From positions 1 to 27,982 of IMG/VR virus record IMGVR_UViG_3300049783_001444: a stretch of 27,982 nt of DNA; one strand, written 5' to 3'. How positions within the stretch are numbered: position 1 is the stretch's first letter; every line of letters begins with the position of its first letter. Below the pieces are notes generated by a model that was not told the DNA's origin, did not search any database, and saw nothing but the letters and a program-made list of their open reading frames with translations. Made by a program: the position numbers and the translations under genes. The DNA comes from a virus. Below, in pieces: positions 1 to 22,114 of this stretch.

Positions 1-99
1 CTAACAGAATGTACTTTAACCCAAGATAAAAAATCAATTGAGGAAAAATTAAGAGTTATGCAAGACTCAGCTCAAAACGCTGCTGGTTTAGCAATGTAA
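1..99 (+). CDS. 3' end of an unassigned gene
   Basis: An open frame enters from the left edge and stops with TAA, giving the last 32 residues of a protein that ends in ...DSAQNAAGLAM. The tail is helical-looking and hydrophilic. In T4 the gene just upstream of the clamp loader is the sliding clamp (gp45), but these residues do not let me assign that identity. A strong intrinsic terminator follows 9 nt after the stop, so this is the last gene of its transcription unit. Confidence 0.7.
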   Translation, partial: LTECTLTQDKKSIEEKLRVMQDSAQNAAGLAM

Positions 100-10737: not shown

Positions 10738-11309
10738 AATTTATAGTTCCTACTTTCAAAGATGATATCCAATTAATGGGTCTAATCTACTCATTAATAG
10801 CTCAAAGTAATAATAACTGGACAGCCCACATAATATCAGATGGTGAATATGAGGGGTTTAATGAAGTTGTAGAACATTTTTGTTTAAATAATCAAATTAA
10901 GTTTTCAACAATTAAAGGTCCAAATAATGATTGGGGACATACAGCTAGAAACTATGGTTTAAAACACTCCAGTGAAGAATGGGTTGTAATGACAGGAGCA
11001 GATAATTATTATATGCCTGATTTTGTAGATGAATTCCTAAAAATACCTGAAATTGATGGAGATTATAACTTCATATATTGTAATATGGTTCATAATGAAG
11101 CTCACTACAAACATTATCAAGTATTAGAAACTCAATTGAGGGTAAATGAAATTGATATGGGATGTTTTGCTACAAGGTCTAAATATTCAAAACAAATAAA
11201 ATTAGATACAAAAAGCTATCAAGCAGACTGGCGTTTCGTAGAAAACTATCGTATATTATACCCAAGCAAGGTTAACCACATAAAAAAAGTATTATATGTC
11301 CACAATTAA
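10725..11309 (+). CDS. GT-A glycosyltransferase (family 2-like)
   Basis: 194 aa. LEFIVPTFKDDIQLMGLIYSL is a GT2 start. WTAHIISDGEYEGF, the WGHTARNYGLKHS helix and VVMTGADNYYMPDF (about 88-101, with ADN at the metal site) complete the donor domain. No ATG fits before the family start, so TTG at 10725 is used, overlapping the epimerase by 13 nt. It is shorter than most GT2 proteins and lacks a long acceptor domain. The next gene overlaps its end by 14 nt. Confidence 0.82.
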   Translation: MEKLEFIVPTFKDDIQLMGLIYSLIAQSNNNWTAHIISDGEYEGFNEVVEHFCLNNQIKFSTIKGPNNDWGHTARNYGLKHSSEEWVVMTGADNYYMPDFVDEFLKIPEIDGDYNFIYCNMVHNEAHYKHYQVLETQLRVNEIDMGCFATRSKYSKQIKLDTKSYQADWRFVENYRILYPSKVNHIKKVLYVHN

Positions 11310-13208: not shown

Positions 13209-13233
13209 CCCGCGTAAAAATTAGGCTACCGCA
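13209..13233 (+). repeat. 25-nt repeat copy, identical to 17002-17026
   Basis: The 25 nt from CCCGCGTAAAAATTAGG to ACCGCA are identical here and at 17002-17026. A diverged copy lies at 21583-21604 (with GGATACC). The repeat contains the TTAG box and the first part of the spacer of promoters P3 and P4, so it is a dispersed promoter-bearing cassette rather than a simple repeat. Confidence 0.85.
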
Positions 13234-13252
13234 TAGATAGTTCGTATATTTA
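13221..13252 (+). promoter_or_regulatory. Promoter P3 (TTAG-N20-TATATTTA)
   Basis: TTAG (13221-13224), a 20-nt spacer starting GCTACCGCA and ending GTTCG, then TATATTTA (13245-13252). ACGG-type sequence and an AT-rich leader ending AAAGGTT precede the ATG at 13284. Architecture matches the Bacteroidota -33/-7 promoter, with TTAG in place of TTTG. Confidence 0.7.
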
Positions 13253-13283
13253 CGGTATAATAATAATAATAAAAATAAAGGTT

Positions 13284-14021
13284 ATGTCAAACGAAACGCA
13301 ATTAGATTTATTTGAAGGAAAAATTTTAACAACTGATCAAAAACTAGAAATTCAACAATATATTTCTAGATGTGATAAAGAAGTTCTTAGAAAACAAAAC
13401 GAGAATAGAGAAATCATGTTATTACTTGATGAAGCTGGTTTTAGACAGGGTATTGATTATGTAAATGATTTTGGAGTAGATGTAAAAACTTATGAGCATG
13501 AGTTTGGTTATTGTTACAACAATACTGAATGGGTTGCTGAAGTTGAAGTAATGAGAAGTAGTGGTGGGTGTCAAATTTTATTTGATTCATTTCGAAATGG
13601 TAAAATTGAAATGGGTAAAAGTTATGTTAGTAGAGAAGGTGATAAATTACAATGTACTAGTATTACTTCACAATATAGATATTATAAGCCAAGTTCATTA
13701 TTAGCTAAACTTAAAGAACATAATAATTTCTCATTAAGACAATTAGAAGCTACTAATAAAAAACAAAGTATACTAGAATACACAGTTGAGAAATATACAA
13801 AATTATTTCCTAATGCTGAAGTTAAAGTAGGTCGTGATTATGATAGAAATAGAAACAATTTTAATGAATTTTCCACAATAATAATTAATTTCACATCAGG
13901 TAGTTATGTTATTTATAGATTAGGTTATAATAATGATGGAGAATATTTACATAAAAAGTTTGATAATGTAGTTGATACATTAAAAGGAATGGATTTATTA
14001 AATCACTTTAACAATCAATAA
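13284..14021 (+). CDS. Unknown 245-aa protein
   Basis: It starts at the ATG directly after the AAAGGTT leader of promoter P3. The N-terminus (ETQLDLFEGK) resembles a clamp-binding peptide (QLDLF), a motif used by proteins that bind bacterial or phage sliding clamps. This may be chance but fits a replication-linked role. A helical segment (about 15-55) is followed by two similar-looking mixed domains, each with a charged YDVKTYEHEFGY- or RDYDRNRNNFNEF-type segment. No enzyme motif is recognised. The next gene follows after one base. Confidence 0.8.
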   Translation: MSNETQLDLFEGKILTTDQKLEIQQYISRCDKEVLRKQNENREIMLLLDEAGFRQGIDYVNDFGVDVKTYEHEFGYCYNNTEWVAEVEVMRSSGGCQILFDSFRNGKIEMGKSYVSREGDKLQCTSITSQYRYYKPSSLLAKLKEHNNFSLRQLEATNKKQSILEYTVEKYTKLFPNAEVKVGRDYDRNRNNFNEFSTIIINFTSGSYVIYRLGYNNDGEYLHKKFDNVVDTLKGMDLLNHFNNQ

Positions 14022-14022
14022 T

Positions 14023-14394
14023 ATGAAAGATAGAATAGAAATAGATGGAGTATGGTACACTAGAGAAGATAATACAACTCCCGAAGTAATCCCTCAACTA
14101 GAACCCTCCATATCATATGAAGGTTTAGTATTTGAATCCGATCTTTATTGTTTTGAAGTCACTAGATTAAGAGATGACACAGGTAACTTTTATGATAAAC
14201 AATGTGATATTCAATTTACTGATAAAAAATTAGATATAGACAACTCAGAACATTGGGATAGTGTAGATTGGATGTGTGGTATTTTAGAAAATGAAGTGGA
14301 AGCAATTGATGAGGCAATGGAATCATTGTGTTCTCAAGGATTAATTGAATTAAAAGAAGTATTAAAAGAATTAGCTGAAAAGGGGTGGATATGA
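14023..14394 (+). CDS. Unknown acidic 123-aa protein
   Basis: The start ATG follows the previous stop as TAATATG. The protein is strongly acidic, with a beta-rich N-terminal half (IEIDGVWYTRED, LVFESDLYCFEVTRL) and a helical C-terminus (MESLCSQGLIELKEVLKELAEKG). No known domain is recognised. Its stop overlaps the next start (ATGA), so it belongs to the P3 operon. Confidence 0.78.
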   Translation: MKDRIEIDGVWYTREDNTTPEVIPQLEPSISYEGLVFESDLYCFEVTRLRDDTGNFYDKQCDIQFTDKKLDIDNSEHWDSVDWMCGILENEVEAIDEAMESLCSQGLIELKEVLKELAEKGWI

Positions 14395-14621
14395 GTTGGA
14401 ATCATAGAGTAATGAAACACGAAAAGGCAGATGGAGATGATGATTGGTATCAAATTCATGAAGTTCACTATAACAGTAAACGGAAACCAGAGAGTTGGAC
14501 TGTAGAAGGTATTGCCCCTGGAGGTAATACGCTTGAGGATTTAAGAGATGAATTAATTAGGATGTTAGAAGCAACAGAAAAAAATATATTAAATTATGAA
14601 ATTAAAAATGATCAAATGTAA
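14391..14621 (+). CDS. Small conserved-looking protein (76 aa)
   Basis: Starts MSWNHRVMKHE, continues with YQIHEVHYNSKRKPESWT and ends in a helix (LEDLRDELIRMLEATEKNIL). I recall this layout in small uncharacterised proteins of both bacteria and phages; no function is established. ATG 14391 is chosen because it forms the ATGA overlap with the previous gene; a GTG two codons upstream is possible. The 3' end overlaps the next gene by 26 nt. Confidence 0.78.
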   Translation: MSWNHRVMKHEKADGDDDWYQIHEVHYNSKRKPESWTVEGIAPGGNTLEDLRDELIRMLEATEKNILNYEIKNDQM

Positions 14622-14874
14622 CTCATGTGAAGGTGATATGCCTGAACTAAGATTAACAACATACAGTTATGACTTCTGCGTTAAATGTTCAGAAAGTGGA
14701 AACAAGGTTAAAGCTAAACATGGTGTTAATATTATGATGGGTGAAGGAGACCATACATGGGTTGAAACTGTGATTATGGATGAAGACCAATATAACAACT
14801 ACCAGAAATCATATAATTCAAATAAACCAGAACCAACGTTAATTGAATTTGGGATAGAAGTAAATGGCAAATAA
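14596..14874 (+). CDS. Small zinc-binding protein (CxxC...CxxC)
   Basis: 92 aa. C8-N-S-C11 and C28-V-K-C31 form a four-cysteine zinc site, with the second pair in FCVKC, reminiscent of DksA/TraR-type fingers. The C-terminal half is acidic and shows no further motif. It overlaps its upstream neighbour by 26 nt and the next gene by 11 nt. It may bind nucleic acid or a protein partner; which one cannot be told from sequence. Confidence 0.75.
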   Translation: MKLKMIKCNSCEGDMPELRLTTYSYDFCVKCSESGNKVKAKHGVNIMMGEGDHTWVETVIMDEDQYNNYQKSYNSNKPEPTLIEFGIEVNGK

Positions 14875-15481
14875 GAAGAAATTTTTAAGTAAGGAACAAA
14901 TAGTAGCGGCACAGGGTAAAACACTATCCAATATGGCTGCCGCTAGGTACCTTCATGTTTCATATCAACATTATAAGAAATACGCTAAAATGTATACCTT
15001 ATTTGAGGACCATAAAAACCAATCAGGTAAGGGTATACCTAAGTATTTAAAAGGCCCTAAAAAAATGCCTCATATGAAGGAGATAATTGAAGGTAGGATA
15101 GCAGCCTCCTCATTTAATCCAAACAAGCTTAAATACGCTTTAATAGAACAAGGGTATATAGCAGAGGAATGTGTTTCGTGTAAATTTAAAGAAAGACGAG
15201 TATTAGATTATAAAATACCTTTATTATTACATTTTAAAGATAAAAACAGTAACAACTATAGTTTAGACAATGTTCAATTATTATGTTATAACCATTATTT
15301 TCTACAAGTAGGAGACATATTTAATAAACAAGATGTTAAACAACTTGAGTCACAACAAGAACATTATGGTACAAGTGAAACTATTGAATTTGAAGTTGAT
15401 GATTACCACTTACAACGTTTAAAAGAGTTAGGTTTAGATGGTGAAGATGATGATGTTGATCAATATATAAGCAGAATATAA
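14864..15481 (+). CDS. HNH-like zinc protein with helix-turn-helix-type N-terminus
   Basis: 205 aa. Residues 8-45 (KEQIVAAQGKTLSNMAAARYLHVSYQHYKKYAK) read as a helix-turn-helix segment. Then comes a treble-clef-like core: C103-x2-C106, LLLHFKDKN with H123, LDNVQLLC with N136 and C141, and H144 in CYNHYF. It looks like an HNH endonuclease core in which the last CxxC cysteine is replaced by H144. The C-terminus is very acidic. I recall this type in marine T4-like phages. It could be a DNA-binding regulator or a homing-type nuclease; whether it still cuts DNA is uncertain. Confidence 0.7.
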   Translation: MANKKKFLSKEQIVAAQGKTLSNMAAARYLHVSYQHYKKYAKMYTLFEDHKNQSGKGIPKYLKGPKKMPHMKEIIEGRIAASSFNPNKLKYALIEQGYIAEECVSCKFKERRVLDYKIPLLLHFKDKNSNNYSLDNVQLLCYNHYFLQVGDIFNKQDVKQLESQQEHYGTSETIEFEVDDYHLQRLKELGLDGEDDDVDQYISRI

Positions 15482-15637
15482 ATGAAAAATAAAAAACATC
15501 ATAAGATTACTAAGGACTATAATAAGCAAAAAAGTAAGCATCTGGAAAAGTTAACAAATAAAATGCTTAAAAATGATGAAAAAGCTCAACAATTAAAATC
15601 AAAACCAATTAAGGGTGATTTTTTAAAAAACTTTTAA
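15482..15637 (+). CDS. Lysine-rich 51-aa protein
   Basis: An uninterrupted ATG...TAA frame fills the gap exactly: it begins directly after the previous stop and ends 1 nt before the next ATG. The product (MKNKKHHKITKDYNKQKSKH...) is about one third lysine, with two histidines, so very basic; it may bind nucleic acid. No motif is recognised. The perfect fit between neighbours argues that it is a real gene despite its size. Confidence 0.65.
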   Translation: MKNKKHHKITKDYNKQKSKHLEKLTNKMLKNDEKAQQLKSKPIKGDFLKNF

Positions 15638-15638
15638 C

Positions 15639-16229
15639 ATGAAAAAATTAGATAGTATATCGTTAGTATTATTATTTTCAATTATATTATTCTCAACAGT
15701 GGCCTTTACAACTATTGTTAGAGCCAAAGCACAACCCATTATTCAACTTAAACCCAAACCTATAGTTGAAATGCAAGTTAAAATAACAGCACCTGAACTT
15801 GTAATAATGTCAACCTCACATGAGCAGTTTTTAAATGCAATGGGGCATAGAGAATCAACTAATAATTATACAGTTGTTAATAAATTTGGTTATATGGGTA
15901 GATACCAATTTGGTCAATCAACACTTAAAGGGTTAGGTATTAAGGCATCAACAGAAGAATTTATTAATAATCCAGCTTTACAAGAATATGCGATGCAAGA
16001 ATTATTAGTACATAATAAAAAAAAATTAAAGCGATATATTAAAAAATATGAAGGTCAAATTGTTCATGGTGTATTCATAACTGAGTCAGGGATATTAGCT
16101 GCTGCCCATATAGGTGGTGCTGGTAATGTTCGTAGATTTTTTAGGAATGGGTATGAATTTAAAGATGGTTTTGGAACCAAAATGACCTCGTATATGAAGT
16201 TATTTGGGGGGTATAATTTAAATGTTTAA
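15639..16229 (+). CDS. Exported lysozyme/transglycosylase-like protein
   Basis: 196 aa. A signal peptide or N-terminal anchor (SISLVLLFSIILFSTVAFTT, about 6-25) ends at RAKAQ, a possible AxA cleavage site near residue 31. The mature part has FLNAMGHRESTNNYTVVNKFGYMGRYQFG (about 64-92), matching the lysozyme-like transglycosylase fold with E72 as catalytic acid, then YMGRYQFG and a later ESGILAAAHIGGAGNV. It would cut peptidoglycan in the periplasm, as an endolysin exported by the host Sec system or during infection. No holin is obvious beside it, although small membrane proteins lie further on. Confidence 0.8.
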   Translation: MKKLDSISLVLLFSIILFSTVAFTTIVRAKAQPIIQLKPKPIVEMQVKITAPELVIMSTSHEQFLNAMGHRESTNNYTVVNKFGYMGRYQFGQSTLKGLGIKASTEEFINNPALQEYAMQELLVHNKKKLKRYIKKYEGQIVHGVFITESGILAAAHIGGAGNVRRFFRNGYEFKDGFGTKMTSYMKLFGGYNLNV

Positions 16230-16253
16230 TTATATATTTATGTCAAAAATGCA

Positions 16254-16382
16254 ATGGCAAAATTATTACAATTAAGTAATTATACACATAAGTCTAAAAC
16301 AAAAAGACCAGGGATACATTCAAAGAATGCTTCAAAAGGACAAAATGGATATAAAAAAACTTATAAAGGGCAAGGTAGATAA
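16254..16382 (+). CDS. Basic 42-aa protein ending KGQGR
   Basis: ATG 16254 to TAA 16382 encodes 42 residues rich in Lys, Ser and Gly, including KTKRPGIHSKNASKGQ and ending YKKTYKGQGR. I recall short proteins with an RPG-H-K...YKK-Y-GQGR pattern in marine T4-like phages, which supports reality; the function is unknown. Its 3' end overlaps the next gene's start by 38 nt in another frame. Confidence 0.55.
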   Translation: MAKLLQLSNYTHKSKTKRPGIHSKNASKGQNGYKKTYKGQGR

Positions 16383-17010
16383 ATTCAATAAACAAGGTTA
16401 CATCCATTTAAAAAATGTAATTAAACCTCCCTTATTGTCTCATACCCGCTATCAATCTATAGCATTAGCTAAACATTATAGACAATTTGAGGGCCAACCT
16501 AGAGATAATGGTACAGGTATATTTTGGAAAGGGTTAGAAATGGCTTCAACATTACAACCTATGTTATTTGAATCATATACTCATAAAGATATGTTTCATA
16601 TTGCCCAAGCGTTTTTAGGGGTGGATGAACCTTATTTATACAATGATCAAGTAGTAGTTAAATTCCCACTTGATGAATTTACATTTGAACCGCATTATGA
16701 CAATGAATACGGTCCTAATAAAGAGGGAGCATTAAAAGGTGAGTTTAAAACAATAAATTGCTGTCAAATATTAACAAATATGCCCATTAAAAGCGGTCCA
16801 TTACGTTGTTATAACAATGAAACACAACAATATGATGTATTACCCGCTAAAGCTGGAGACATCGTTGTAATCGACGGTAACACATTACATTCTTCTACAC
16901 ATAATCTATCAGATAAAGTAAGAGCACTATATGCTTGTGTTTATTCTTCACACCCCATAGGTGACCACATGCAGGGATTCTATAACGAAAAATTTAAGAC
17001 TCCCGCGTAA
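16345..17010 (+). CDS. PhyH-type 2OG/Fe(II) oxygenase
   Basis: 221 aa from ATG 16345; an earlier in-frame ATG at 16327 would overlap the small upstream gene more. The N-terminus FNKQGYIHLKNVI is the usual PhyH opening. The iron site is H117-x-D119 (PHYDNEYGP) with H182 (LHSSTHNLS) and R193 for 2-oxoglutarate. PhyH enzymes hydroxylate small molecules such as lipids, amino-acid derivatives or sugars; the substrate here is unknown. The last residues and the TAA stop lie inside the promoter-cassette repeat (17002-17026). Confidence 0.85.
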   Translation: MDIKKLIKGKVDKFNKQGYIHLKNVIKPPLLSHTRYQSIALAKHYRQFEGQPRDNGTGIFWKGLEMASTLQPMLFESYTHKDMFHIAQAFLGVDEPYLYNDQVVVKFPLDEFTFEPHYDNEYGPNKEGALKGEFKTINCCQILTNMPIKSGPLRCYNNETQQYDVLPAKAGDIVVIDGNTLHSSTHNLSDKVRALYACVYSSHPIGDHMQGFYNEKFKTPA

Positions 17011-17026
17011 AAATTAGGCTACCGCA
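17002..17026 (+). repeat. 25-nt repeat copy, identical to 13209-13233
   Basis: Second copy of the promoter-bearing repeat. Here its first nine bases are coding (the last residues and stop of the PhyH-type gene), while the copy at 13209 is wholly intergenic. This supports the cassette having been copied next to different genes. Confidence 0.85.
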
Positions 17027-17045
17027 GTAATATTTCGTATATTCA
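17014..17045 (+). promoter_or_regulatory. Promoter P4 (TTAG-N20-TATATTCA)
   Basis: TTAG (17014-17017), a 20-nt spacer starting GCTACCGCA and ending TTTCG, TATATTCA (17038-17045), then CGGTG and an AT-rich leader ending AAAGGTT before the ATG at 17071. The TTAG box begins 4 nt after the previous stop. Confidence 0.7.
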
Positions 17046-17073
17046 CGGTGTAATAATAAAAATAAAGGTTATG
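17033..17073 (+). repeat. 41-nt promoter/leader repeat, identical to 19794-19834
   Basis: From TTTCGTATATTCACGG through the AAAGGTTATG start codon, all 41 nt match the copy at 19794-19834. The repeat spans the -7 box, transcription start region, leader and ATG, so genes 17071 and 19832 have the same 5' untranslated region. Confidence 0.9.
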
Positions 17074-17307
17074 AGTGAAAATAAAAGATATGTTGTACAA
17101 ATGGAAATGTACGTTTATGCTGACAACGATTATATGGCTAAAAAACGTGCTAACGATTTAAGATTATCAATTGGTAATAGAAGACATTCCCAAGATGTAG
17201 TAGTTAAAGAAATAGGTGAACAACCATTTGCTTCAACTTATTATAGAAAATTTGACGATCCATCCTTTACACCTAAAGATACGTCTAACGATCCTTTACC
17301 ATTTTAA
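17071..17307 (+). CDS. Unknown 78-aa protein
   Basis: Starts at the ATG of the P4 leader. The first half is a predicted beta-alpha unit (RYVVQMEMYVYADNDYMAKKRANDLRLSIG) and the C-terminus is extended and proline-rich (SFTPKDTSNDPLPF). No domain is recognised. It is followed through TAATATG by a 53-aa gene. Confidence 0.72.
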   Translation: MSENKRYVVQMEMYVYADNDYMAKKRANDLRLSIGNRRHSQDVVVKEIGEQPFASTYYRKFDDPSFTPKDTSNDPLPF

Positions 17308-17308
17308 T

Positions 17309-17470
17309 ATGAAAGCAGGAGATTGGATAACATATGATAATAAACGTAAAAAATGTTTTGGAATACATTTTAATGGTAATATCTTAATAAAGATGAATGG
17401 TACTTTAGTACAAGTACCACATAAAAAAACAAGGTTATGGCAAAACGCGAATATAGAGGTTGCGAATTAG
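17309..17470 (+). CDS. Small beta-rich protein (53 aa)
   Basis: ATG 17309 forms the TAATATG junction with the previous stop. The product, beginning MKAGDWITYDNKRKKCFGIH, looks like a small all-beta (SH3-like) domain. No function is recognised. Its 3' end overlaps the next small ORF by 34 nt. Confidence 0.65.
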   Translation: MKAGDWITYDNKRKKCFGIHFNGNILIKMNGTLVQVPHKKTRLWQNANIEVAN

Positions 17471-17577
17471 AATCTCCACTGTATAGACAAGTAGCAGCTG
17501 AAATGGCTGGTAAACCTCTAATAATCGAATCAAAAACAAAACGAGGTAAGCGCAGTAAAATTAGGCTACCGCAGTAA
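17437..17577 (+). CDS. Small ORF (46 aa) whose end runs through promoter P5
   Basis: ATG 17437 is preceded by ACAAGGTT, close to the AAAGGTT leader seen at promoter-led genes. The product is basic (MAKREYRGCELESPLYRQ...KTKRGKRSK). Its last codons, KIRLPQ-stop, are the TTAG box and spacer of promoter P5 read as coding sequence, so the C-terminus is supplied by the cassette. No known family. Confidence 0.5.
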   Translation: MAKREYRGCELESPLYRQVAAEMAGKPLIIESKTKRGKRSKIRLPQ

Positions 17578-17592
17578 TAGTTCGTATATTTA
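17561..17592 (+). promoter_or_regulatory. Promoter P5 (TTAG-N20-TATATTTA)
   Basis: TTAG (17561-17564), a spacer of 20 nt starting GCTACCGCA and ending GTTCG, TATATTTA (17585-17592). The leader to ATG 17641 is longer than at the other sites and contains TCGAA-TGG-TTCGA (17598-17610), a 5-bp hairpin or a GTTCGA direct repeat that could be an operator. It ends in AAAGGTTAT. Confidence 0.7.
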
Positions 17593-17640
17593 TGTGTTCG
17601 AATGGTTCGAGCGATTAATTAATTAAAAAATAAAGGTTAT

Positions 17641-17835
17641 ATGTTTTATCAAATCACAAATGTTAAGTTAAAAAGAAACAATCAAATTAGAGTTGCATCA
17701 ATGGGTGCTCTTGTTAAAGCGATTAAAAAAGAAGGTTGGTCAATTGGTGATTGTAAGGTTACTGAAATGGCTAAAGAGTTAGTTAATGCTAAATATAAAT
17801 CGCCAGATGGTAGAATGGCAACTAACCAACATTAA
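17641..17835 (+). CDS. Unknown basic 64-aa protein
   Basis: First gene after promoter P5. Starts MFYQITNVKLKRNNQIRV, then a helix (MGALVKAIKKEGWSIGDCKV). The pattern suggests a small alpha/beta protein with no recognised motif. It ends in the TAATATG junction with the next gene. Confidence 0.7.
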   Translation: MFYQITNVKLKRNNQIRVASMGALVKAIKKEGWSIGDCKVTEMAKELVNAKYKSPDGRMATNQH

Positions 17836-17836
17836 T

Positions 17837-18250
17837 ATGAGTAGAGGTAGACCAAAAGAACAAGAAGCAATAGTATGGCAAAAATACACTCAAGAAATGC
17901 TTGAGGTACCATCAAAACCCGAATTAGGTGGAAGATCAGTTTGGCACTATGATAGAAGTAAATTTGATCGTGGTCCGTATAAAACTGAACATTGGGAAGC
18001 TAAAGGTTATAAACAACCTAAACCACAAATTGATCAACGTTTATATGAAAAAAATAGCCCAACTGTAATAATATTTGCTACATCTAACCGTTCAAATGCT
18101 AAGGTAAAAATGAAGATAATTAATAAAAATATTGATTATGTTATCACAGCTAAGAAAATACCAGGTATACCAGAAAAAGCAGAATGGCTTGAATTGGGAG
18201 TTGGTGTGTCCTTTATTGCTAAGTGGAAAAAGAAGTATAATTTGAAGTAA
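17837..18250 (+). CDS. Unknown 137-aa protein
   Basis: ATG 17837 is in a TAATATG junction; upstream codons in frame lie within the previous gene. It starts MSRGRPKEQE, where GRPK resembles a minor-groove AT-hook core. There is a charged middle (SVWHYDRSKFDRGPYKTEHW) and a C-terminal half that looks beta-rich (TVIIFATSNRSNAKVKMKI) and ends in basic residues. DNA binding is possible but not shown. No family recognised. Confidence 0.75.
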   Translation: MSRGRPKEQEAIVWQKYTQEMLEVPSKPELGGRSVWHYDRSKFDRGPYKTEHWEAKGYKQPKPQIDQRLYEKNSPTVIIFATSNRSNAKVKMKIINKNIDYVITAKKIPGIPEKAEWLELGVGVSFIAKWKKKYNLK

Positions 18251-18289
18251 ATTTATATATTTATAATAAACATTTAAAGAACAATTATT

Positions 18290-18586
18290 ATGGTGATAGT
18301 ATGTATTATTTTAACTTTATTAGTGATAGCAGGTGCTATTTATTATTTTGAGTTTTATAAAAAAGGTAAAATCAATGACAGAGATGGAGATTATATTCCT
18401 GATGAAATAGAGGATACAATTGAAGATATTAAGGAGCATGCTAAGGAAGTTAAACGTAGAGCTAAAAACGTTGGAGAAGAATTAAAAGATGTAGTCGTAG
18501 CAGCTAAAGAGTTAGGTAACCAATTAGGTGATGTAGCTAAGGCAGCAAAAGGTAAAAAAAGACAAGGTCGTAAATCTAAAAAATAA
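18290..18586 (+). CDS. Membrane-anchored protein with DxDGD motif and amphipathic helices
   Basis: 98 aa. One N-terminal transmembrane segment (MVIVCIILTLLVIAGAIYYF) is followed by a short loop NDRDGDYIPDEIED, which resembles calcium-binding DxDxDG/thrombospondin type 3 repeats. A long amphipathic helix rich in Lys, Glu and Ala and a basic tail (KKRQGRKSKK) complete it. It is probably anchored in the inner membrane. The 39-nt leader holds TTATATATTTATAA, but no upstream box at the right spacing. Role unknown. Confidence 0.72.
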   Translation: MVIVCIILTLLVIAGAIYYFEFYKKGKINDRDGDYIPDEIEDTIEDIKEHAKEVKRRAKNVGEELKDVVVAAKELGNQLGDVAKAAKGKKRQGRKSKK

Positions 18587-18589
18587 AAA

Positions 18590-19699
18590 ATGAGTAAATA
18601 CAATTTAGAAGAAATTCACATAAGCAATGTTAAAGAAAATATGTCAGCAGATGACCAAGCCAGATTTGATAATCTAACTAAAGATGATCAATTAAAACTT
18701 GAAAAAATATTTTCAATGATGAAAGCTGAAAAAGATGCTAAAAAATCAACAAACGAAGATTTTGATAGTGTAGTAGACAAAATTAAAGATTCAGGTAAAT
18801 CAGAAGAGGATGCTAAAAAAATTGCGGGTGCAATTAATGCTAAATATGTAGGTAATTATAGAGAAGGTGTTGAAGAAAGTGATGCTGCAGATTATACAGA
18901 AGAAATAGCTGAAGAAAATGATGAAGATAAATTGCCAATGGATGAAGATAAATACGATGACATCGTAGATGCAGATAGTGATATCCCTGCTGATAAGAAA
19001 AAGGCAGCAGCCTTAGCTTACAGAAAAGTAGATAAAGGTGATTCATATGAAAAGGCAACATCACATATTAAAGAAGTAAGAGTTGATAGTGAGGTAGCTG
19101 AACGTATTGAAGGTTTGTTAAATCGAGATTTAAAAAGAAAATTTTTATTTGCGTTTGAAGACTTATATAGTGACTTAATTGAAGAAGATCCATTTCATGC
19201 TGAAGATGTAATTAACCATTTAAATAATGAAATGTACAAGCAACTTCAAAGTTATCAAGATACAGGTGATAAATTTGCTGGTATGGAAGAAGGAGCAATG
19301 CAACCCGGTGAAGGTGATCTAGAATCAGGTGAAACAGGTAACATGGATGCTTTAGATGAAGCTGAACCAATAGGTTTATCACCAGGTAAAAGTGAAAAAG
19401 GAGCTGATGGTAAGATGCATAATGTTAAAGCTTCAAATTCAGAAAGAAAAATGGCAATGAGAAGAGTCATTGATGCTTTAACTACTAAAGGTGATGAAAA
19501 AGGATTTAAAATAAGTAATGATCAAGCTTTAGAATTCATAAGAACACATAAAGACGATATATTTTCAGGAGACATAGATACAGAAGATGTTGAAGACATT
19601 TGGATGAACTATAATGAATATGAATCAATTAATACCGATTCATTAGGTGAAGCAACATTAAAAGAACACTTTGGCCGTTTTATGAAAGATTATCAATAA
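18590..19699 (+). CDS. Acidic 369-aa protein, possible virion/scaffold component
   Basis: Very acidic and helical, with low-complexity Asp/Glu stretches (about 95-130). It contains two units that look related: VVDKIKDSGKSEEDAKKIAGA (about 61-81) and a later segment ADKKKAAALAYRKVDKG (about 137-155). The second half has KRKFLFAFEDLYSDLIEEDPFH and a C-terminal LKEHFGRFMKDYQ. No enzyme motif is visible. Acidic, helical composition occurs in phage scaffold or internal head proteins and in small-molecule-independent regulators; nothing decides. It ends the unit: a structured RNA and a strong terminator follow. Confidence 0.72.
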   Translation: MSKYNLEEIHISNVKENMSADDQARFDNLTKDDQLKLEKIFSMMKAEKDAKKSTNEDFDSVVDKIKDSGKSEEDAKKIAGAINAKYVGNYREGVEESDAADYTEEIAEENDEDKLPMDEDKYDDIVDADSDIPADKKKAAALAYRKVDKGDSYEKATSHIKEVRVDSEVAERIEGLLNRDLKRKFLFAFEDLYSDLIEEDPFHAEDVINHLNNEMYKQLQSYQDTGDKFAGMEEGAMQPGEGDLESGETGNMDALDEAEPIGLSPGKSEKGADGKMHNVKASNSERKMAMRRVIDALTTKGDEKGFKISNDQALEFIRTHKDDIFSGDIDTEDVEDIWMNYNEYESINTDSLGEATLKEHFGRFMKDYQ

Positions 19700-19709
19700 A
19701 ATAAACAGT

Positions 19710-19750
19710 ACTTACTACGCTACCCATTTGAATAGCGTCCCAGAGTAAGT
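19710..19750 (+). other. Structured RNA hairpin upstream of a terminator
   Basis: ACTTACT (19710-19716) pairs with AGTAAGT (19744-19750), and CGCTA (19718-19722) pairs with TAGCG (19733-19737). A 10-nt loop lies at the tip and a 1-by-6 nt internal loop lies between the two stems. It sits 10 nt after a stop codon and 12 nt before the terminator stem. It could be a 3' end stabiliser or part of a small RNA. Pairing is read from sequence; function is not known. Confidence 0.55.
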
Positions 19751-19761
19751 CTTTTAAAGAT

Positions 19762-19796
19762 AAGTGCGGTTCCATTAGGATACCGCACTTTTTTTT
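19762..19796 (+). terminator. Strong intrinsic terminator overlapping a promoter
   Basis: AAGTGCGGT (19762-19770) pairs with ACCGCACTT (19782-19790). TCC (19771-19773) pairs with GGA (19778-19780) inside it, with one bulged base and an ATTA loop. An 8-T run (19789-19796) follows. The loop and inner stem carry the TTAG box of promoter P6. It ends the unit of the acidic protein gene. Confidence 0.88.
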
Positions 19797-19806
19797 CGTA
19801 TATTCA
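19775..19806 (+). promoter_or_regulatory. Promoter P6 (TTAG-N20-TATATTCA) inside a terminator
   Basis: TTAG (19775-19778) lies in the terminator tip. The 20-nt spacer starts GATACCGCA and consists of the right arm and T-run of the terminator plus CG. TATATTCA (19799-19806) follows, then CGGTG and the AAAGGTT leader before ATG 19832. Confidence 0.7.
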
Positions 19807-19834
19807 CGGTGTAATAATAAAAATAAAGGTTATG
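19794..19834 (+). repeat. 41-nt promoter/leader repeat, identical to 17033-17073
   Basis: Second copy of the block running from TTTCGTATATTCACGG to the AAAGGTTATG start codon. Upstream of the block the two sites differ: a terminator arm and T-run here, a non-hairpin spacer at 17018-17032. The conserved unit is therefore the -7 box plus leader. Confidence 0.9.
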
Positions 19835-20278
19835 CCCATAGTAGAATTTTCAAATTACAACAAACATGGTAATATTCGTACTCGTAGATTTTGGCAAGAA
19901 AAAAGTAATTTAAGTATCAATCCTAGCGGATTTGGTCCTTCAATATTCTTTAGACTTTTCAAATACGACCACACTAATAGAATATCTCCATCATTACTTA
20001 CCTTATCTGGTAAAACATACATAATGCCAGGCTGGCAAGAAGTATTACCTCAAACTCGATTAAGTGATATTAATTGGATTAAGCCAAAACCAAAGAAAAT
20101 AGTTAAACAAAAACCAATAATCGAAACTAATATTAGTGGAAGTGGTTTAGGTGAATACACAACTAAATATTATCCTGAAAGTGGTAAATTTCATTGTTCA
20201 TGTCCTGGATATTGGAGGTCAAGTGGTAATTGTAAGCATGTAAAGGTAATGCGCACAAAATTTGGAGACGCGAAGTAG
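19832..20278 (+). CDS. SWIM-type zinc-finger protein
   Basis: 148 aa. The C-terminal YTTKYYPESGKFHCSCPGYW...GNCKHVKVM contains C122-x-C124, C134-x-H136, the SWIM zinc-finger pattern CxC...CxH found in DNA-, RNA- or protein-binding proteins. The N-terminal half is basic, with FWQEKSNLSIN and IFFRLFKYDH, and no known domain. A lysine-rich linker (KPKPKKIVKQKP) joins them. Promoter P7 begins within its last codons, so it leads directly into the DNA ligase unit. DNA binding is inferred. Confidence 0.82.
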   Translation: MPIVEFSNYNKHGNIRTRRFWQEKSNLSINPSGFGPSIFFRLFKYDHTNRISPSLLTLSGKTYIMPGWQEVLPQTRLSDINWIKPKPKKIVKQKPIIETNISGSGLGEYTTKYYPESGKFHCSCPGYWRSSGNCKHVKVMRTKFGDAK

Positions 20279-20292
20279 GGTTCGTATATTCA
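20261..20292 (+). promoter_or_regulatory. Promoter P7 (TTTG-N20-TATATTCA)
   Basis: TTTG (20261-20264), an exact match to the Bacteroidota -33 box, lies inside the last codons of the SWIM gene (K-F-G). The 20-nt spacer ends GTTCG and TATATTCA is at 20285-20292. Unlike its siblings it lacks the GCTACCGCA spacer start. This shows that spacing and boxes, not the whole repeat, are the shared feature. The AAAGGTT leader precedes ATG 20316 of the ligase. Confidence 0.7.
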
Positions 20293-20315
20293 CGTGAATG
20301 ATAAAAACAAAGGTT

Positions 20316-21575
20316 ATGATAGAATTAACGAATTTTATAGATGCAATGCGTGCTACGAGTAGTGCCACTGAAAAAATACAAATTATTAAAGATGCTGATA
20401 GGCATATTCATACTATGTTAGAATATGTTTACAACCCATTTAAACAATATCATGTTACTAGTAAAACGTGTATTAAAAATAAAGATAAGATTACTAAAAG
20501 TAATTATAGTTTATTTGAGTTACTAGATAAATTAACTAATAGGGAAGTAACGGGACATGAAGCTATAGGTTTAATAAATGGTCTAGCTGATGGTCAATTT
20601 AATCCTTATATCTACAAAATGATAGATAAAGATTTAGGCATCAGAGCTGGTGATTCAATAATTAATAAAGCAGTACCTGGATTAATCCCTACATTTAAAG
20701 TTGCATTAGCAAAAGAATATGATGATAAATGTGATTGGAATGATGGGTGGTATGCTTCAAGAAAATTAGATGGTGTTAGATGTTTAGCCGTTGTTAATTA
20801 TGAAGGTGAATGTACACTTTATTCTAGAATGGGTAAAGAATTAACTACATTAAACAAAGTAAAAGAAGCGATTGAAGCATCAGGTATTATTAATACTGTA
20901 TTTGATGGTGAAATTTGTTTAGTTGATGAGAATGGTGATGAAGATTTTCAAGGTATAATGAAACAGCTAAGACGTAAAGACCATCAAATCGAAAACCCGG
21001 CTTATATGATATTTGATATGCTTCATAAACCCAATTTTGATGCTCATAAAGGTGGTCCTATATTAAGTCAAAGATTAGGAGCGTTAAGGTCATTTTTAAC
21101 TGGTAGATATATTACTGATAATACATTACGTTATACAGAACAATTCCAAATAACAGATAATGACCATTTTAATTACTGGTCTGAAATGTCCAATCAAGAA
21201 GGTTGGGAAGGTGTTATGTTACGTAAAGATGTTACTTATGAAGGTAAACGTACTAAAAATTTACTTAAAGTTAAGAAATTCTTCGATGCTGAATATACAG
21301 TAGTTGATTTTGATATTGATGACCATGAAGTAGTTAGAGATGGTAAATCTGTCACACTACAACTACTAGCCCAAGTATACATTGAACATAAAGGACATAG
21401 AGTAAAAGTTGGTAGTGGGTTTACTCAAGAACAACGATTACAATATATGGATGGTTCAATTGTAGGTAAAATTATTACAGTACAATATTTTGAGGAAACT
21501 AAAAACGACAAAGGTGGTATTAGTTTACGATTCCCAACTATGAAGCACGTACACGGAGATAAAAGAGAAATGTAA
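20316..21575 (+). CDS. lig: ATP-dependent DNA ligase
   Basis: 419 aa. Nucleotidyltransferase motifs are in order: motif I KLDG with the AMP-accepting K150 (ASRKLDGVR), motif III FDGEICLV, motif IV EGVMLRKD and motif V LLKVKKF. A C-terminal OB-fold-like region follows (AEYTVVDFDIDD...GKIITVQYFEETKNDKG...SLRFP). It seals nicks using ATP, the role of T4 gp30. I chose ATG 20316 over 20298 because it follows the conserved AAAGGTT leader; the upstream ATG would translate that leader. T4 gp30 is a little longer (487 aa), with a larger N-terminal domain. Confidence 0.93.
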   Translation: MIELTNFIDAMRATSSATEKIQIIKDADRHIHTMLEYVYNPFKQYHVTSKTCIKNKDKITKSNYSLFELLDKLTNREVTGHEAIGLINGLADGQFNPYIYKMIDKDLGIRAGDSIINKAVPGLIPTFKVALAKEYDDKCDWNDGWYASRKLDGVRCLAVVNYEGECTLYSRMGKELTTLNKVKEAIEASGIINTVFDGEICLVDENGDEDFQGIMKQLRRKDHQIENPAYMIFDMLHKPNFDAHKGGPILSQRLGALRSFLTGRYITDNTLRYTEQFQITDNDHFNYWSEMSNQEGWEGVMLRKDVTYEGKRTKNLLKVKKFFDAEYTVVDFDIDDHEVVRDGKSVTLQLLAQVYIEHKGHRVKVGSGFTQEQRLQYMDGSIVGKIITVQYFEETKNDKGGISLRFPTMKHVHGDKREM

Positions 21576-21591
21576 AATTTCCACGTAAAAA

Positions 21592-21623
21592 TTAGGATAC
21601 CGCATAGATAGTTCGTATATTTA
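21592..21623 (+). promoter_or_regulatory. Promoter P8 (TTAG-N20-TATATTTA)
   Basis: TTAG (21592-21595), a spacer of 20 nt starting GATACCGCA and ending GTTCG, TATATTTA (21616-21623). The leader ending AAAGGTT precedes a 32-aa ORF at 21656. The upstream part is a diverged copy of the 25-nt repeat. Confidence 0.7.
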
Positions 21624-21655
21624 TGGTATATTAATAATTAAAAACAATAAAGGTT

Positions 21656-21754
21656 ATGTTTAAAACAGATGCAGTAATTGATTTATGGGTTGGTATTAAT
21701 GGTGGTTTTATTACCGTTGATGAGTATTATGAAATGTTAAATTTATTAAATTAA
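21656..21754 (+). CDS. 32-aa ORF led by promoter P8
   Basis: ATG 21656 follows the AAAGGTT leader and the frame stops with TAA at 21752-21754, just before another AAGGTTATG start. The product (MFKTDAVIDLWVGINGG...) shows no motif. It could be a small protein or a leader peptide for the downstream genes. Support is the leader position and tight spacing only. Confidence 0.45.
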   Translation: MFKTDAVIDLWVGINGGFITVDEYYEMLNLLN

Positions 21755-22025: not shown

Positions 22026-22114
22026 TGGTAGAATTAATAGAACAATTATACCAGACAAATCAAATAAGTGAAGAAGTAAGAGATCAATTAATTAACAAAC
22101 ATTATAATAAATAG
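22025..22114 (+). CDS. 29-aa ORF
   Basis: TAATG links it to the previous gene, and it ends with TAG just before an AATAGGTTATG start. The product (MVELIEQLYQTNQISEEVRD...) is a single likely amphipathic helix. Its reality rests on the overlap and spacing alone. Confidence 0.4.
   Translation: MVELIEQLYQTNQISEEVRDQLINKHYNK

Follow-up and report, generated by a model that had tools for sequence, protein, structure and literature searches.

Putative early or middle promoters on a Bacteroidota plan in T4-like phages, a subset of them predicted to combine a transcription stop with a start

The IMG/VR record IMGVR_UViG_3300049783_001444, analyzed here over its entire length of 27,982 bases (the window), is a fragment of a T4-like phage that encodes a gp44-like clamp loader, a gp62-like protein, a DNA ligase, glycosyltransferases, and 2OG-Fe(II) oxygenase-like proteins. 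Eight dispersed sites in this window, listed in a preliminary description of the DNA, are most probably early or middle promoters that follow the -33/-7 layout of the host primary sigma factor, in a phage infecting Bacteroidota, with a subset of such sites acting as combined stop and start elements; judging from sequence, we place the probability of this reading at roughly 80%. Each promoter would comprise TTTGG (or the variants TTAGG, CTTG, and GTTG) at -33, a fixed 20 nt, and TATATTTA at -7, with TTCG before and CG after this box, and would start a short leader that often ends in AAAGGTT joined to ATG. In the fused subset, the promoter would lie within the intrinsic terminator of the preceding gene: the hairpin would contain the -33 box, its 3' arm and the T-tract would occupy the spacer, and the T-tract would continue into the -7 box. 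A single element of approximately 40 bp may thereby terminate the transcript arriving from upstream and initiate the next unit. Late genes would use a second motif class, ATATTTATAA, without a -33 box. Both this late class and the terminator overlap were overlooked in the preliminary description.

Promoter-like sites in the window and its relatives

Searching the window for TNG-N18-CGTATATT revealed nine matches on the + strand, whereas 100 dinucleotide shuffles of the same DNA averaged 0.10 matches and never exceeded one. Eight of these are the sites listed previously, all of which were found where they had been placed, and the ninth, at 11229, lies within an ORF. CGTATATT itself occurs ten times, always on the + strand, and the two copies that do not belong to the eight sites (7027 and 11250) are in ORFs. 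The invariant 20-nt gap that had been claimed for the family does not hold for CGTATATT, which follows after 18 nt, but is correct as the distance to TATATT, the -7 box; a 20-nt gap before CGTATATT gave no matches in the window, using a TTG pattern that excludes TTAG in any case.

Relatives were drawn from IMG/VR by way of the ligase (80 loci kept of 342), the clamp loader (80 loci kept of 390), and the motif pattern (7 loci). Across 183 loci containing 557 copies of CGTATATT, 214 of the 222 TTWGG boxes found 8-39 nt upstream were at a single offset, 22, equivalent to 20 nt to TATATT. The same offset was found for 192 of 200 boxes in the ligase and clamp loader loci, which were selected by protein and not by motif, taken together with two relatives designated G001 and G003. 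An alignment of 133 non-redundant sites yielded the consensus A-TTTGG-nTACC-...-TTCGTATATTTACG with A-rich stretches upstream, in which T-12, A-11, T-8, and T-7 are not independent as CGTATATT and TTNG were fixed by the search. Within this set, chosen for TTNG, the -33 box reads TTTG in 105 sites and TTAG in 27, while in the -7 box T stands at -6 in 82 sites, and at -5 there are 113 sites with A and 6 with G. Counted over clade loci, A(-5) was present in 176 of 198 sites. Scanning for the form with G at -5 returned 84 stretches, and 46 of the 79 loci examined had no homologue of the window's clade; scanning for the A(-5) form returned at least 120 stretches, and 115 of 120 among the matches listed had a clade homologue. 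This suggests that the frame is common to other phages, which probably also infect Bacteroidota, and that A at -5 is a mark of the window's clade. The G(-5) form is also repeated in one very large phage contig of 412,435 bases (L249 and others), with ten matches in six loci.

The position weight matrix scan proposed in the preliminary description was carried out with a matrix trained on 109 sites from loci outside G001 and G003. In G001 this identified 23 sites, all on the coding strand, 18 of which are followed by an ORF start within 0-60 nt, and in G003 ten sites, again all on the coding strand, such that the predicted enrichment 5' of genes was borne out. The threshold was never reached in 12 shuffled strands of each genome, and CGTATATT was retained in 22/23 and 10/10 of the hits, respectively, although the matrix tolerates mismatches. 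AT-rich and two-copy repeats are plentiful in the window genome, but with 0.1 matches expected from shuffles, no matrix hits in shuffled genomes, restriction to a single strand, and 133 non-redundant sites among relatives, the idea that the sites are chance or repeat artefacts without promoter function can be dismissed.

All eight sites are on the + strand. Site 1 (117-146; CTTG, 18 nt, and CGTATATT) lies 5' of an ORF starting at 153 and of the gp44-like clamp loader gene, and site 2 (1902-1931; GTTG, 18 nt, and CGTATATT) lies within the gp62-like ORF and 5' of an ORF at 1977. Site 3 (13221-13250; TTAGG...TTCGTATATT) precedes the ORF at 13284-14021, site 4 (17014-17043) an ORF at 17071, site 5 (17561-17590) an ORF at 17641, and site 6 (19775-19804), which is fused with a terminator-like hairpin, an ORF at 19832. 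Site 7 (20261-20290) would serve the gene for a 419-residue ATP-dependent DNA ligase (20316-21575, +; phrog_114, E 1.9e-80), and site 8 (21592-21621) lies 5' of a short ORF at 21656. The six AAAGGTT leaders previously reported are likewise present on the + strand, at 13277-13283 (abutting the ATG at 13284), 17064-17070 (ATG 17071), 17632-17638 (ATG 17641, with two bases between), 19825-19831 (ATG 19832), 20309-20315 (ahead of the likely ligase start, ATG 20316), and 21649-21655 (ATG 21656). Many leaders after early sites in the relatives hold a small hairpin, for example GGGTGCGAGCCC or GAGGCGCGAAGCC, between the promoter and the start codon (L064/L172-L180; for example G001 109690 and 116279). 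With regard to RegA-like translational control of the AAAGGTTATG leaders, the Pfam RegA model matched none of six records and none of the control genomes either, and is hence uninformative.

The position of the sites relative to individual genes is less constant than the motif. An early site was found within 130 nt of DNA ligase orthologues in 6 of 52 relatives and within 400 nt in 16 of 52 (53 of 80 loci listed, one dropped for short upstream sequence), indicating that the place of the promoter shifts between phages. For clamp loader orthologues, a site within 450 nt was kept in 19 of 50 relatives (55 of 80 loci listed, five dropped for short upstream sequence). Hits of the motif in Clostridia genomes were set aside, as they represent one sequence common to all, including its flanks, that looks like a conserved coding repeat. 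A literature search, with subscription papers largely outside its reach, found no report of the motif or of a terminator-promoter fusion, which is not proof that neither has been published.

G001, at 163,571 bases, encodes T4-type gp17, gp20, gp21, gp23, gp13, gp18, gp19, gp41, gp43, and gp44, and by its gp23 the nearest cultured relative is Flavobacterium phage immuto, with 60% identity. As no gp23 was recognised in the window itself, its own placement depends on relatives found through the clamp loader and ligase, together with the shared motif; a DNA-level comparison of its first 25,000 bases with a phage collection found nothing close. Four contigs (L194, L212, L197, and L207) binned as Woesearchaeota or Pelagibacter encode proteins with 68-90% best identity to the phage clade and look like phage contigs misplaced in the wrong bins.

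Terminator-like hairpins overlapping the putative promoters

Two sites in the window overlap hairpins of terminator-like form on the + strand. At site 6, a 12-bp stem with one mismatch (19759-19793; arms 19759-19770 and 19782-19793) carries the TTAGG of the -33 box in or beside its loop, and a run of eight T ends at the -7 region. At site 1, a 9-bp stem (108-130) surrounds the -33 box and is followed by TTATTTTT; this hairpin is conserved in relatives with compensatory changes, although the covariation is modest, with two of eight pairs compensatory in ten sequences and 131 of 500 shuffles equalling it.

To score the overlap, candidate terminators were defined without reference to promoters and then examined for running into C.TAT[AC]TT. 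This revealed that 9 of 34 terminators do so in immuto (controls 0 and 0), 2 of 4 in the window, 33 of 219 in clade loci (controls 5 and 1), and 28 of 221 in G(-5) loci, the last having been chosen for containing the box; control windows reached at most 5. Over 400 kb of the Flavobacterium flevense chromosome, none of 143 terminators ran into the phage box, and 3 of 143 were followed by the host box TAHHTTTG versus 4 and 2 in the controls. Pairing between the two arms was assessed by an energy-based test, the one that we rely on, in which arms are swapped among sites. Swapping lost much folding energy both among the 133 clade sites (z -11.2) and among 67 sites of G(-5) phages (z -9.8), and strong pairing (dG <= -15 kcal/mol) was found in 15/133 and 9/67 sites where 0.7 and 0.2, respectively, were expected. 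Looser counts separated real from arm-swapped sites poorly, with stems in 28 of 133 sites versus a swapped mean of 21.0 and maximum of 28, and terminators with a T-rich tail in 18 of 133 versus 10.1 and a maximum of 16.

Several observations weigh against a terminator role for the overlap. The arm-swap controls were not entirely flat, as an upstream segment pair gave z -2.1 in the clade and -3.3 in G(-5) phages and the leader gave z -4.2 in the clade. Most promoter sites lack a strong hairpin, with 110 of 133 above -10 kcal/mol. In addition, the box follows only 1 of 18 terminators in G001, where the control at +30..50 also gave 1, and only 1 of 12 in G003, where the single case precedes a late motif. 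The form of an intrinsic terminator, namely a GC-bearing stem, a short loop, and a T-tract after the upstream stop codon, is thus a property of the fused subset and not of most promoter sites.

That terminator and promoter merely abut in a compact genome and overlap without joint function is an explanation we take seriously, while leaning against it. Genes are tightly packed, some terminators are closely followed by late motifs too, and in all ten immuto elements that we listed by hand the hairpin begins 2-45 nt past the upstream stop codon. Against simple abutment, however, stands a fixed register: in 9 of these 10 elements the TTG of the -33 box is inside the hairpin, exactly 22 nt before the C of the -7 box (the tenth has CTAG), and the same geometry recurs in other, at most distantly related, phages. 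Elements of this kind in immuto are found at 22062, 25480, 33319, 37288, 46496, 64490, 104382, and 130535. Three of the immuto elements have hypothetical genes that adjoin head or tail blocks on one side and a DNA primase, a PhoH-like gene, and a DNA polymerase on the other, the block labels being our own.

The inverted repeat around the -33 box could alternatively be a DNA operator for a dimeric regulator, in place of an RNA hairpin. TTnGG pairs with the spacer (five pairs, loop of 3-7) in 53 of 133 sites versus 16.7 with shuffled spacers, and a long T-run is often missing, with at least six T in only 8 of 25 strong hairpins, both of which would suit an operator. However, the arm sequences vary from site to site while pairing is kept, which an operator would not need; G.T is favoured over A.C at non-Watson-Crick positions by 23 to 4, versus 193 to 158 in swapped controls (Fisher p 0.002); and folding is slightly more stable on the + than on the - strand (p about 0.02). 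An operator is therefore unlikely.

For the fused subset as terminators joined to promoters, we tentatively propose, as a possibility we consider rather doubtful, that a composite punctuation element evolved in Bacteroidota phages by which polymerase released at the T-tract would be handed directly to the next promoter, a few bases away. The fused geometry recurs among lineages with at most a distant relationship, and the chromosome sample from the host genus showed no case of it. Bifunctional terminator-promoter elements have reportedly been engineered for yeast (PMC10298055); like these and like intrinsic terminators, the phage elements unite stop and start parts in one short element, whereas they differ from the yeast constructs in being natural, in occurring in phages, and in having the upstream box of the promoter inside the hairpin. 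Single-molecule work in Escherichia coli describes released polymerase that can restart at a nearby promoter (PMC7957599).

Host polymerase and the base at -5

The preliminary description had taken the box spacing to fit the Bacteroidota -33/-7 promoter, and had concluded that host RNA polymerase could read the sites and that the host probably belongs to this phylum. The phylum is correct as far as it can be tested, since the nearest cultured relative of the clade infects Flavobacterium and carries the same motif. The layout in immuto is that of the window sites, with mostly GTTG or CTTG and TTC[N]TATATTTAGG. In two studies, the Bacteroidota primary-sigma promoter is given as TTTG at -33 and TAHHTTTG at -7 (PMC6847099, PMC7366714), and for Flavobacterium johnsoniae the former describes a nearly invariant G at -5 and a weak -33 element (PMC6847099). 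Comparison with host genomes supported the spacing. In 198 genomes of the phylum of F. flevense, 23 of 42 TTTG-N-TTCGTATATTTR matches were at the phage spacing +/-1, where about 8 would be expected from an even distribution, versus 6 of 25 with 5 expected in 199 genomes from the phylum to which a Lachnospiraceae genome belongs; both counts include the seed genome through which the phylum was reached. The peak in the host phylum thus equals the phage value, with some spread. One bacterial genome from an Alistipes bin (G012, L205) contains 27 TTTG-N-TCGTATATTT matches, mostly near copies of one promoter-like sequence, and these are possibly a repeated promoter family.

The phage sites share with the primary-sigma promoter the TTTG at -33, T-12, A-11, T-8, and T-7, approximately 20 nt between the boxes, and short leaders. 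They differ from it in having A for G at -5, an extra TTCG before the -7 box, one fixed spacing in place of a variable one, and, in a subset, the hairpin overlap. Two of these features count against host reading: the -5 base departs from a near-invariant host G, and, given the weakness of the host -33 element in the study cited above, a host promoter appears to require far less strictness than the phage pattern shows. We therefore regard the sites as working like primary-sigma promoters without filing them as canonical members, and reading by host RNA polymerase as supported with the reservation that the -7 box is noncanonical. T4 early promoters are strong, host-type promoters with the -35/-10 boxes of sigma-70 that stand ahead of early gene groups. 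The present sites would likewise be host-type promoters before early gene groups of a large myophage, with Bacteroidota boxes in place of -35/-10.

Strict spacing, a long consensus, and A at -5 could instead be the signature of a phage-modified polymerase or of a phage sigma factor other than the host primary sigma. A(-5), at the frequencies given above, breaks the host consensus, and the G(-5) form occurs mostly in other phages. On the other hand, the TTTGG, 20 nt, and TTCGTATATTT frame is present in phages without clade homologues, A(-5) is found in 7 of 72 sites of the loci retrieved by the G(-5) search, the spacing is matched in genomes of the host phylum, and no second sigma candidate was identified among the few proteins searched for one. 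We consider such dedicated reading improbable and favour the host primary sigma factor. As a side observation, the immuto annotation includes 7-deazaguanine synthesis genes and a DNA guanine transglycosylase (L335 18607-37015); a link between modified guanine and the missing G at -5 is speculation.

A late class of motif

Assignment of the sites to early or middle transcription units, as claimed initially, is supported in so far as they form a non-late class, early and middle being inseparable by sequence. In T4, middle promoters are marked by a MotA box near -30. Matrix hits in G001 are absent from 2,369-58,264, where the head and tail genes gp17, gp20, gp21, gp23, gp13, gp18, and gp19 are located, and the motif enriched in this region is ATATTTATAA. 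Across four sequences ATATTTATAA occurs 53 times on the coding strand and never on the opposite strand, with 47 of 53 copies 5-60 nt before a start codon, including copies upstream of gp20 and gp19 in G001, of the sheath and tube genes in immuto, and of an endolysin-like gene. Its sole copy in the window (18257-18266, +) precedes a weakly spanin-like ORF (18290-18586; phrog_739, E 0.00096), which fits a late lysis gene. No conservation above 0.4 bits was found upstream of 49 late sites, consistent with a single box and no -35 element, and leaders of the GGTT or AAGTT type precede none of 49 late genes versus 31 of 64 genes after early sites. Among ten proteins encoded after early sites in G001, four matched families of DNA metabolism (two exonucleases, a DnaB-like ATPase, and an endonuclease), one matched a dehydrogenase, three matched only families without known function, and two were unmatched. 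Eight of ten proteins after late motifs matched nothing, and the late label thus depends on the gp20, gp19, sheath, tube, endolysin, and spanin-like cases.

The late class would presumably be read through the phage's own gp55-like sigma factor. A candidate gp55-like protein was identified in G001 (phrog_234, E 1.6e-4; one of four records), with relatives of 59% identity in G003 and 41% in immuto, where the gp55-like protein is gp118, and the best structural match of its model (mean pLDDT 71) was T4 gp55 as part of the gp55-dependent open complex (7d7c_F, Z 10.0, rmsd 6.7 over 122 residues), a match that stems from a second-look list and is subject to the caution due to helical models. Weighing against this assignment, the link to gp55 is weak by sequence (E 0.014), profile comparison with T4 gp55 gave a non-significant probability of 0.6%, and a Z of 10 is modest for a helical model of this pLDDT. 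Searching PDB sequences with the sigma-like profile retrieved nothing, and Foldseek alone returned no match below E 0.001. The T4 late promoter box is TATAAATA, read on the coding strand. Late promoters of T4, for which 7d7c is a solved complex with gp55, resemble the present class in having a single box and no upstream element, and possibly in a phage-encoded gp55 or gp55-like protein, but differ in the box, which here is ATATTTATAA on the coding strand. On the + strand TATTTATA exceeded TATAAATA in all four sequences (41/20, 31/11, 30/15, and 4/3).

Taken together, these sites provide a usable promoter map, with early or middle and late classes, for a large and mostly uncultured group of Bacteroidota phages, and a marker of host phylum that short fragments suffice to reveal. 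In genetic tools for Bacteroidota, the fused elements may serve as compact parts, and those in the cultured phage immuto offer a natural test of whether polymerase is recycled from the end of one transcript to the promoter that follows.

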